Origin: Bacteroidales bacterium
GTDB taxonomy: Bacteria; Bacteroidota; Bacteroidia; Bacteroidales; VadinHA17
Direction: 5' to 3'
NCBI GenBank assembly: GCA_021738535.1
Contig: JAIPBU010000009.1
Span: forward strand, 1-64,000
Length of the DNA stretch: 64,000 nucleotides
The notes beneath the pieces were generated by a model, which was given only the letters and a program-made list of their open reading frames with translations, was not told where the DNA came from and made no database searches. Shown piece by piece: positions 21,609 to 24,996 of the stretch. Positions within the stretch are counted from its first letter, which is position 1. The number at the start of each line of letters is the position of its first letter. A program made the position numbers and the translations under genes.

Positions 21609-22475
21609 ATGGAAATGAAAAAAACAATCTCACTTTTACCACTCCTTACAATCCTGCTGGTATTATTTACAACGGCAAGTTGCAGCAAAAAACTGCTTTC
21701 ATCTACTGAAAAAGGATCTACCCTGGAATATAAGTTTACCGGTGATGATTCATATAAATACCTGCAAAGCTCAGAAGTTGTGCAAACAATTGATTTTAAC
21801 GGTCAGGATATAAGCACCTATATTAATTCTGACCTTGGCTTTACTGCCAGTGCAAAAGGAATAGCTAACGGTTCTCTTATCCTGGACATCACCCTTGATA
21901 CACTTGGTGTATCCATAAATTCAATGCAGGGTAATATGAAAGAGGATATAAGCGACCTTAAGGGTAAAAGCTTCATGATGACAATGGACCTTGATGGTGA
22001 CAATATGGACCTGGATGAAGCCGCTAAGCTCCAATATACGGTAGCGGGAATGCAGAATTCAAACCTGAAAGCCAGTTTCATGGAAATATTCCCGGAGCTG
22101 CCAGGCAGCGGTACTGAAATTGGTTACACCTGGCAGGACACAGATACAGTTACCATTAATACTGAAACTGAGAATGTTGAACTGATACTGACTACTGACA
22201 ACATCATAGAAGCAAAAGAGAAAAAATTCGGCTATGATTGCTACAAGGTCAGTTATAAATTGAGCGGAACACGTGATGGCAGTAGTCAGACTCCACAGGG
22301 AATGGTACTGACCAGTTCAGATGTAAAAGGTACAGGACACTATTATTTTGCTGCTAAAGAAGGTGTAATTGTTTCCAGCCATACAAACAGTAATTCAGAT
22401 GGTAGTGTTACAATCCCAACAGGTCAGAATCTTCCAATGTATATGACAACAAAAAGTGATCTCTTATTAAAATAG
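21609..22475 (+). CDS. Exported lipoprotein of unknown function (DUF6263-like)
   Basis: A 288-residue lipoprotein. ATGs at 21609 and 21615 both give a Lys-rich start, a hydrophobic core and the lipobox FTTASCSKK. The mature part is beta-rich and polar, with a GSTLEYKFTGDDSYKYLQ start, a run of Asp/Met (MTMDLDGDNMDLDE) and a late GTGHYYFAAKEGVIVSSH motif. I do not recognise it with certainty; the overall plan resembles DUF6263-type Bacteroidota proteins. It stands alone between convergent and divergent neighbours, with a -7 box just upstream and a complex inverted-repeat region downstream. Confidence 0.8.
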   Translation: MEMKKTISLLPLLTILLVLFTTASCSKKLLSSTEKGSTLEYKFTGDDSYKYLQSSEVVQTIDFNGQDISTYINSDLGFTASAKGIANGSLILDITLDTLGVSINSMQGNMKEDISDLKGKSFMMTMDLDGDNMDLDEAAKLQYTVAGMQNSNLKASFMEIFPELPGSGTEIGYTWQDTDTVTINTETENVELILTTDNIIEAKEKKFGYDCYKVSYKLSGTRDGSSQTPQGMVLTSSDVKGTGHYYFAAKEGVIVSSHTNSNSDGSVTIPTGQNLPMYMTTKSDLLLK

Positions 22476-22578: not shown

Positions 22579-22631
22579 CTAATATGACCATCGAAACAAA
22601 TTTTACCCTATTCACCGGGCAGTTTTTTTTT
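22556..22631 (+). terminator. Alternative inverted repeat with T-run
   Basis: ACTGCCCGG (22556-22564) pairs with CCGGGCAGT (22615-22623), which runs directly into a run of eight or more Ts. The left arm shares two bases with the preceding inverted repeat (22563-22564), so both stems cannot form fully at once. The 50-base loop is long for a standard terminator. Confidence 0.45.
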
Positions 22632-23511
22632 AAGGGATAAGTAATGGCCAGCCTTTCCTGATTTTTGCTACCCTGAAGACCATATTCTTTTTTACCCTGT
22701 AATCATCACCTACCATTACCTCATGTTTCAGTCCGTGTTCATCCGAAACAAGTAATATTTTACCCTGGCCATCGGGCCTGGTACTCTCTGAAATGAGAAA
22801 AAATTCGTATGACTGTCCCGGGCTGTAATATGGATTTACCGGCTCTATCTTAAAATTTCCGGTATCATGATATTTTATAAACCTTCCCTTGAAGTCAGAG
22901 TTTTTTTCAAGGCCGTAATATGAATACTGGTCTGACGGTATTATATGATGGTCATTAAGGTGATCTCTGACCAGGAAGTAATCTTTACCATCCAGGCCCT
23001 TTTTCCTGTCATAAATATAGAAATCATACACGGCCTCTTCTTCAATCCTTTCACGGCCTTTTTTCTTACCCCTCTCTGAAAAAACTATTTTACCCTTTGT
23101 TATTTTCTCAACCGGAAGTTTAATATAATTATCCAACTGCTCATTATAATTGCTCACCATATCCACCGGCACTACTAATTCCTGTCCCGCCCTGTCAGAA
23201 AGGGTAAGAACAACAACTGTTTCTCCCTTGCTATCAACCCTCAAATCGCGGCCGGTAACCTCAAACATATATTCCCTGCCTTCTGAATAATAAGGGTGTT
23301 CAGGCTCAAGGAACACCTCTCCCCTGCAGTTAATTTTATCAACCCTGCAAGTGATTTCATCATCGATATTTATATTATAGTGCTCATAATAATCTTTTTT
23401 CAATAAGTATTTAATCTCTCCGGGACCGAGTAACAAATAGTAATTATTCCCCCCGATCTCTAATACTCTTTTAACAAAAAAGTTATATTTTTCTCCTTCC
23501 TGAAGCTTCAT
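22630..23511 (-). CDS. Four-repeat OB-like protein, unknown function
   Basis: A 293-residue soluble protein made of four similar units of about 70 residues (roughly 5-75, 76-155, 156-228 and 229-293). Each begins EGxxYxFxV or similar, has a GxxxYLL strand, an aromatic-rich YxxY segment and a CRVDKI-like strand. Repeats 1 and 3 end in EPEHPYY and EPVNPYY. The spacing suggests OB-fold or S1-like modules. I know of no named family. The ATG at 23511 (MKLQEGEKYNF) is preferred over an upstream GTG. It lies 15 bases downstream of the cardiolipin synthase gene and is probably co-transcribed with it. A nucleic-acid-binding role is only a guess. Confidence 0.75.
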   Translation of the reverse strand: MKLQEGEKYNFFVKRVLEIGGNNYYLLLGPGEIKYLLKKDYYEHYNINIDDEITCRVDKINCRGEVFLEPEHPYYSEGREYMFEVTGRDLRVDSKGETVVVLTLSDRAGQELVVPVDMVSNYNEQLDNYIKLPVEKITKGKIVFSERGKKKGRERIEEEAVYDFYIYDRKKGLDGKDYFLVRDHLNDHHIIPSDQYSYYGLEKNSDFKGRFIKYHDTGNFKIEPVNPYYSPGQSYEFFLISESTRPDGQGKILLVSDEHGLKHEVMVGDDYRVKKNMVFRVAKIRKGWPLLIP

Positions 23512-23526
23512 AATATTCACAGTATA

Positions 23527-24996
23527 TCAGTATAATAAACCAAAAATCCTGGCCAGGCTTTCCCTGTATCTATCAATATGTGGCCTGTCTGTCCAGAAAT
23601 CATCCAGCACTTCATTGCTTTGCTCTGCATCAATAAAAAACAATTTCTTCAGCTTAACAGAAAAATCTTCATCATATATTAATGCCGTAACCTCGAAATT
23701 CATGTCGAAGCTTCGCATATCAACATTTACTGAACCTACTGAAGAAAGGATATCGTCAACAATGAAATATTTTGAATGATTAAATCCCCTGTTAAACAAG
23801 TACACTCTTACTCCTGCATTCAGCAACTCAGCAACATACGAACGTGAATTCCAGGTTGCAATAGCTGAATCAGATTTGCCTGGCATTATTATTCTTACAT
23901 CCAATCCGCTGAGGGCTGCAGTTTTCAGGGAATTCAGTATACTCTCATTGGGTGAAAAATAGGGTGTGCAGATATATACATACTTCTTTGCTGTAGCAAT
24001 GGCTGAGAAGTATGCCTGCATAATAGTAGCCCAGTTGCTGTCGGGGCCGCTGCTTGCCAGTTGAACAAGGCTGTCGCCTCCCGATTTTGGGTGAGGAAAA
24101 TACTTTTTCTTCCCGGTCAACACTTCACCACTCAAAAAATACCAGTCGTTAAGGAATACCCTGTTAAGACCTGCAACTGAATCACCACGTATTCTCAGAT
24201 GAGTATCAGCCCACGGACCTGTTCCCGGTAACCCTTTAACATACTTATCGGCGATATTCATCCCACCGATATAGCCCACTTGTCCATCCACAACCAGTAT
24301 TTTCCGATGATTCCTGTAGTTAAGCTTACTTGCAAACCAGGGAAACCTGACGGGAAAAAAGGGAAAAACCTGTACCCCATCCCTCCTGTCCTTATCAATA
24401 TAACGTTTTTTAAATGACCAGCTGCCCACATCATCAATAATTACCCTTACTTCAACACCTTCCCCGGCTTTTTTCCTGAGTGCCTCCCTGAACCGGTTAC
24501 CAGTATCATCGATATCAAAACGGTAAACTTCCAGGTGAACATGATCTTCAGCACTTTCAATATCGGAGATCATTGAATTGTAAATTTGCTCAGGGTCGTT
24601 AGCCAGTTCTATACTGTTATTAGCAGTTAAAACTGATTTTTCGTTATTCAGCATTAAGGTAACAAGCTGTTGTTTTTCCAGGAAATTTTTGCCTTTACGA
24701 CTTAGAAGTTCACTGACAGAACGGGTCTGTTCAAAAGCCGCATTAAGCAAATGATCACTATCTGCGAGTCGCTTACGAGAGAAAATCTTTTTTTTCCTGT
24801 AGTTCTGCCCGAAGAAAAAATAAAGAATTATGCCTGCAACAGGCAGTAATGTTATTACCAGCACCCAGGAAAGTGTTTTTACCGGAGCCCGGTTTTCAAA
24901 GATTATTACCATGCAAACAACAATCACCGTAACCAGGTATATAACAGCAATTATTACCTGGAATGAAAAAAGGCTACTAGCAGACCCGGTATCCAT
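23527..24996 (-). CDS. cls: Cardiolipin synthase, phospholipase D family
   Basis: A 489-residue membrane enzyme that joins two phosphatidylglycerols into cardiolipin. Two N-terminal transmembrane helices (about 12-34 and 42-62) are followed by two PLD half-domains. The first HKD motif lies in NHRKILVVDG, with GGMNIADKYV after it. The second lies in FNHSKYFIVDD, followed by GSVNVDMRSFDMNFE. Both catalytic His/Lys/Asp sets are intact and the length is typical of bacterial ClsA. It heads a probable unit with the OB-repeat protein and follows the terminator of the outer-membrane gene. Confidence 0.93.
   Translation of the reverse strand: MDTGSASSLFSFQVIIAVIYLVTVIVVCMVIIFENRAPVKTLSWVLVITLLPVAGIILYFFFGQNYRKKKIFSRKRLADSDHLLNAAFEQTRSVSELLSRKGKNFLEKQQLVTLMLNNEKSVLTANNSIELANDPEQIYNSMISDIESAEDHVHLEVYRFDIDDTGNRFREALRKKAGEGVEVRVIIDDVGSWSFKKRYIDKDRRDGVQVFPFFPVRFPWFASKLNYRNHRKILVVDGQVGYIGGMNIADKYVKGLPGTGPWADTHLRIRGDSVAGLNRVFLNDWYFLSGEVLTGKKKYFPHPKSGGDSLVQLASSGPDSNWATIMQAYFSAIATAKKYVYICTPYFSPNESILNSLKTAALSGLDVRIIMPGKSDSAIATWNSRSYVAELLNAGVRVYLFNRGFNHSKYFIVDDILSSVGSVNVDMRSFDMNFEVTALIYDEDFSVKLKKLFFIDAEQSNEVLDDFWTDRPHIDRYRESLARIFGLLY

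Follow-up and report, generated by a model that had tools for sequence, protein, structure and literature searches.

Background

Among the described proteins that are composed of OB barrels in tandem, bS1 lines several barrels along one RNA strand and CvfB, which in addition carries a winged-helix end, is thought to do likewise. HIN is also made of tandem OB folds, small tandem barrels are found in ModG/Mop (TOBE), and OB folds, which often grip RNA or ssDNA, are also known to bind proteins, sugars and metals. Here we analyze a protein of 293 aa encoded in a 64,000-nucleotide stretch of DNA from a Bacteroidales bacterium (hereafter the window). The original prediction regarded it as four OB-like units outside any named family, and saw in an operon with a cardiolipin synthase gene (cls) a clue to a membrane-associated or RNA-linked role.

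The window protein shares with bS1 the tandem OB barrels, and in structural comparison its units 3-4 match domains 1-2 of bS1, but it lacks Pfam S1 repeats (PF00575, no match at E up to 1) and exhibits two alternating subtypes of units, A-B-A-B, with motifs of their own. With the multi-S1 proteins of the CvfB/YitL type (S1_2, structure 3go5) it has in common its size (S1_2 frames comprise 281-318 aa) and the presence of several OB units, and structure 3go5, which we take to be CvfB-like, is a fold match to it in VIA-align (Z 7.2-7.3). However, it contains nothing similar to the winged-helix end of CvfB, and S1_2 (PF13509) was matched neither in it nor elsewhere in its genome. Finally, Schlafen AlbA_2 proteins (L097, L137, L173 and L174; here and below, L and G numbers are our handles for loci and genomes) begin with a homologous A-B pair, but they comprise 589-1147 aa and include an AlbA_2 domain, whereas the window protein consists of OB units alone (Pfam finds no AlbA_2 in it). 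No description of the family or of its AlbA_2 fusions was found in the literature searched, including the accessible parts of PMC12839542 and PMC7159879, which is not proof that they are undescribed.

Gene structure and repeat organization

The gene (22630-23511, minus strand) is read from an ATG at 23511 to a stop codon at 22630-22632, with a GTG at 23520, nine bases outward, as another possible start. Upstream of it, on the same strand, lies cls (23527-24996, minus strand), which codes for a cardiolipin-synthase-like PLD protein (Pfam PLDc_N and two PLDc_2 stretches) and whose stop codon is separated from the start of the four-OB ORF by 15 bp. A plus-strand gene at 21609-22475 is convergent with the four-OB gene; it is lipoprotein-like, of unknown family, and L002 and L007, from the closest relatives, have a similar gene on that side as well. 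By inspection of the sequence, neither a membrane segment nor a signal peptide is apparent in the 293-aa protein.

As had been proposed, the whole protein is filled by four OB-fold units, which we delineated with family profiles and AlphaFold2: unit 1 (residues 1-78; 23278-23511), unit 2 (residues 79-149; 23065-23277), unit 3 (residues 157-232; 22816-23043), which a linker separates from unit 2, and unit 4 (residues 233-293; 22633-22815), all on the minus strand. The EPxxPYY element that the original prediction ascribed to the units closes unit 1 (EPEHPYY, residues 69-75; 23287-23307, minus strand) and, in the sequence as well as in the family profiles, unit 3 (EPVNPYY, residues 223-229; 22825-22845, minus strand), but it is absent from units 2 and 4, whose C-terminal element is I-x-K-G.

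In local alignments of the single sequence, units 1 and 3 scored 94, a value reached by none of 1000 shuffles (maximum 54); the scores of four other pairs were reached by 4 to 24 of 1000 shuffles, and that of units 1 and 4 by 554 of 1000. Units 1 and 3 are thus the one pair that stands well clear of chance at this level. All six pairs do align once family profiles are compared, with hhalign probabilities of 90-99.9. Units 1 and 3 constitute one subtype, A (probability 99.9, E 5.8e-31), and units 2 and 4 a second one, B (probability 99.1, E 6.7e-18), hence the layout A-B-A-B; the four A-B cross pairs reach probabilities of 90-96, with scores of 39-51 against maxima of 13-23 in 30 column shuffles each.

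Predicted structure and relationship to known folds

Structure prediction returned four confident five-stranded barrels (AlphaFold2 model of the whole protein from 80 sequences, pLDDT 91.3, pTM 0.70), and the pTM value means that the units themselves are sure, their mutual arrangement less so. Units 3-4 modeled alone gave pLDDT 93.9 and pTM 0.79 (42 sequences). According to DSSP analysis of the AlphaFold2 models, units 1 and 3 are formed by three strands, a helix and two strands, and units 2 and 4 by five strands with no helix; with the superposition on S1/OB domains by VIA-align, this identifies the units as OB folds.

VIA-align ranks S1-type domains, those of NusA, bS1 and RNase R, as the best structural matches. 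Unit 1 is most similar to the S1 domain of NusA (66 residues at rmsd 2.4, Z 8.6), followed mostly by other S1 domains with Z of 6-8, a range that may reflect no more than a shared small barrel. The tool itself cautions that Z near 8 may indicate just a common arrangement. As a pair, units 3-4 superpose on domains 1-2 of bS1 with Z 8.0 and rmsd 4.6 over 118 residues. Foldseek, queried with the whole protein, found p204 HINab with dsDNA (1.2e-6) and bS1 (6.0e-6), with low whole-chain TM-scores of 0.16-0.25.

These barrels and fold matches bear out the view of an OB-like protein without a named family, and no domain database yielded a significant match: comparison with Pfam listed, at E up to 1, only DUF1292 (E 0.57), and the NCBIfam, PHROGs, PADLOC and PDB sequence sets gave none at the limits used. 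The A-B profile compared with 11 S1 domains from the window's genome reached an hhalign probability of 68.7 (score 30.3), which is below a safe threshold. For unit 1 alone the probability was 43.2 (score 24.2, whereas none of 40 column shuffles exceeded 13.9) and for units 2 and 4 only 1.4 and 8.1; unit 3 reached 36.4, but with a 20-column piece that is out of register. Sequence profiles weakly suggest kinship with S1 domains, and for units 2-4 they hardly do so at all. Beyond the window but on the contig to which it belongs (C54 of G000, 86928-88409), a frame of 749 aa shows six S1 matches and is likely the bS1 of this genome.

Given somewhat better than even chances, the reading that we favor is that of a cytosolic, S1-like, multi-barrel RNA-binding protein of the bS1/CvfB type, in which unit 1 is the main working unit. 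The S1-like OB barrels, arranged as two A-B pairs, would reside in the cytosol, several of them would line up along one strand of RNA (or, less likely, ssDNA), and unit 1, with its DKINCxG...EPxHPxY motif, would be the principal binding unit to which the remaining units add affinity or length. We infer the cytosolic location, the binding of nucleic acid, the preference for RNA over DNA and the division of labor between the units; an RNA-linked role, which the original prediction also considered, is plausible. Should RNA binding be proven, such extra S1-like proteins would bear on mRNA choice and regulation in Bacteroidetes, which, according to PMC3155529, generally lack Shine-Dalgarno sequences and in which S1 has been proposed to aid the selection of start sites.

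Distribution and conservation of the family

Within the same order, members of the family were matched in 99 of 393 sampled genomes and in 56 of 207 genera; in two of the 99 (G949 and G972) the match is a larger AlbA_2 protein with a related module. A motif scan of named genomes identified 171 relatives, 80 of which were kept for further analysis, with record labels that are nearly all Bacteroidales or Bacteroidetes (one is Chlorobiota and one 'uncultured bacterium'). This is a real, unnamed family, scattered through one order of mostly uncultured bacteria (Bacteroidales, by the record labels). Samples of the class and of the phylum, which were drawn evenly and hold few genomes of the window's order, gave matches in 2 of 395 and 2 of 296 genomes, each time the window's own genome and G186.

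A more permissive search of 295 class genomes (A4, E up to 0.1) pointed to 26 places, two of them in the window's own gene and one in G186; candidates L099, L101, L107, L111, L114 and L119 look like chance matches, and L103 resembles an ordinary S1 domain. Replacement of CvfB by the family was also considered, but among 60 near relatives the four-OB family was found in 12, S1_2 in 11 and both in 2, i.e. there is no pattern of exclusion. As for carriage by mobile elements, the window protein has no phage match, the two-unit member L009 no plasmid match, and none of 27 viral stretches that fit a pattern encodes a relative.

The family comprises four-unit and two-unit forms. In G001, which belongs to the window's own genus, a 140-aa form (L057:6001-6420, the same as L007:1333-1752) has unit 1 fused in frame to unit 4, with the junction at the EPxxPYY element, and still lies behind cls. 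Such a form suggests the loss of modules via the repeated element; it also suggests that a single A-B pair is enough, and one such pair is probably a sufficient working module.

Unit 1 is the most conserved of the four. Columns conserved in at least 80% of the sequences amount to 21 of 76 in unit 1, 10 of 71 in unit 2, 14 of 76 in unit 3 and 6 of 61 in unit 4, as counted in the 80-row set, whose members were selected by motifs located in unit 1 itself. We therefore recounted key residues in 84 distinct members retrieved by profile and protein searches, a set that partially overlaps with the former and some of whose search profiles were built from it. C62, E69 and P70 are present in 84 of 84, G64 in 82, Y75 in 79, N61 in 78 and C55 in 74. 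The two cysteines are the first and last residues of the signature CRVDKINC (residues 55-62; 23326-23349, minus strand). The C55/C62 pair occurs in 80 of 80 rows of the motif-selected set; a strict two-cysteine metal site is nevertheless unlikely, as C55 is replaced by G, V, I, F or A in 10 of the 84 distinct members.

The location of the strongest conservation, in the last hairpin and the EPxHPxY tail of unit 1 and not in a basic run, would also fit OB units that serve as a protein-protein scaffold or adaptor and bind no nucleic acid. The window protein, with a pI of 6.1, is not basic (the family median is 8.4, range 5.2-9.4), which agrees with such a function. We nonetheless consider a scaffold unlikely: the nearest folds in VIA-align are mostly RNA-binding S1 domains, and four large proteins combine a module homologous to the A-B pair with AlbA_2.

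Larger proteins with an AlbA_2 domain

The distant matches in G186, G949 and G972, and a further one in G770 found from that in G186, are large proteins of 589-1147 aa (the frame of L173 is cut by the stretch fetched), and all four (L097, L137, L173, L174) contain AlbA_2 according to Pfam. Their N-termini align with the A-B module over 143 columns with an hhalign probability of 98.1 and a score of 84.8; in 40 column shuffles the score did not exceed 15.9 nor the probability 0.7, and the reversed control gave 0.1. The A-B module and the N-terminal region of these larger Schlafen-AlbA_2 proteins are thus homologs. The same N-termini compared with S1 domains gave a probability of 1.3. In search of further fusions we found only G186 among 295 class genomes (A6), and 2 among 78 genomes of its family. 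For a common but unnamed family from a large group of mostly uncultured bacteria, the fold, the domain layout and a signature are now described, and the family is linked to proteins of the Schlafen type.

A recent survey (PMC12839542) states that several prokaryotic Schlafen-linked systems can act in anti-phage defense via tRNA cleavage. PADLOC matched none of our four AlbA_2 proteins, hence we assign them to no defense system. Two of them, encoded at L173:1-3417 and L174:458-3898 (both on the minus strand), exceed 1100 aa, with a tandem OB pair at the N-terminus and AlbA_2 further on, and the gene of the former is adjoined by a gene for a C39-like peptidase. The OB-AlbA_2 protein of L137 (193-3033) adjoins a gene of the TaqI_C type (a TaqI-like specificity domain), which PADLOC matches to methyltransferases of types IIG and II.

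Genomic context

Neighboring genes were compared at 140 distinct family loci, many of them with short flanks, which were left when loci repeating one another at 97% identity had been collapsed (L164 = L072 and L157 = L092 were each counted once). The neighbors result from a greedy choice of the longest ORFs, some of those listed being spurious frames, and their names are based on Pfam searches with representatives.

Proximity to cls holds for the window, where the two genes are on the same strand 15 bp apart, but it is bound to lineage: cls is found beside or near the family gene on the same strand in only 12 of the 140 distinct loci (many of which have short flanks). These comprise the window's clade, L027 (with one gene between), L092 and L216, and require three changes on a tree that covers part of the set and is poorly resolved. 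They could be taken to mean that the protein assists Cls in a cardiolipin- or membrane-linked capacity; we deem this highly improbable, given that 128 of the 140 loci, many with short flanks, show no cls, that entire clades hold the family gene beside other genes, and that no lipid-binding relative is present among the best 50 matches of each fold search. As a clue to the role, the cls operon is weakly supported at best, and co-transcription with cls in the window's lineage probably reflects where the gene lies, not what it does.

On the tree of the 80 motif-selected rows the most frequent context is NAD salvage (30 rows; nicotinamidase-type and NAPRTase genes, often with a macro-domain gene), followed by molybdenum cofactor (17), cls/mltG (11), cobalamin adenosyltransferase (8), an AIR-synthase-like gene, presumably SelD (4), Rel (3), an unnamed cluster (3) and others (4). 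Just 8 changes account for these contexts across the 76 labeled rows, therefore the context follows descent. No nucleic-acid-linked neighbor is constant across the family loci.

The molybdenum cofactor cluster, seen in 17 of the 80 rows, brings to mind a Mop/TOBE-like protein that binds molybdate or another oxyanion, and fold searches offer it a partial foothold: ModG takes rank 8 in Foldseek for the whole protein (6.5e-4) and rank 1 for units 3-4 (8.6e-4), and for unit 4 alone its Z of 6.5 equals the best VIA-align rows. Such a protein is very unlikely, however, since for units 1 and 3 the Z values of ModG/ModE (about 6.3-6.4) are below those of the best S1 domains, Pfam finds no TOBE (PF03459) in the window protein (the one TOBE match of its genome is on another contig), the family gene in the cofactor cluster is on the strand opposite to its cofactor neighbors, and 30 of the 80 rows have NAD-salvage neighbors instead.

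The most dispersed neighbor of the family is a RelA/SpoT gene, found on the same strand in 16 loci, nine from one locus set and seven from a second set of 38 fetched regions, which represent 15 of the 140 distinct loci. It is upstream in 12 distinct loci (L011, L043, L072, L084, L167, L169, L178, L190, L191, L199, L206, L207) and downstream in three (L172, L201, L204); 13 of the 15 come from coded genomes with six family codes (f6, f163, f181, f206, f211, f229), and one representative exhibits RelA_SpoT, TGS, ACT and HD domains in Pfam. The adjacency, common to the two-unit and four-unit forms of the protein and seen in both gene orders, would suit a protein that partners or modulates either the RelA/SpoT (p)ppGpp enzyme or translation control in the stringent response. 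We regard this as improbable: 125 of the 140 distinct loci, the window's included and many with short flanks, have no Rel neighbor, the gaps extend to 125 and 178 bp in L204 and L207, and the adjacency may go back to one ancestral position, retained in some lineages and lost in others (6 changes on the poorly resolved tree mentioned above for cls, which covers part of the loci). Even so, the recurring neighborhood of rel is a better lead on function than the cls operon, though still a lead.

A more speculative scheme we also hold to be improbable: the A-B pair may be an RNA-sensing module that has escaped recognition, which as a free protein would act as a ribosome- or mRNA-bound regulator tied to the stringent response, and in fused form would be the sensor of a Schlafen-type effector. 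The tie to the stringent response would account for the repeated place beside rel.

One clade shows a run of a macro-domain gene, NAPRTase and a nicotinamidase-type gene, with the family gene last and often facing a DciA gene (L025, L031, L052, L061, L063, L066, L073, L075, L076, L085, L087, L088, L089 and L094).
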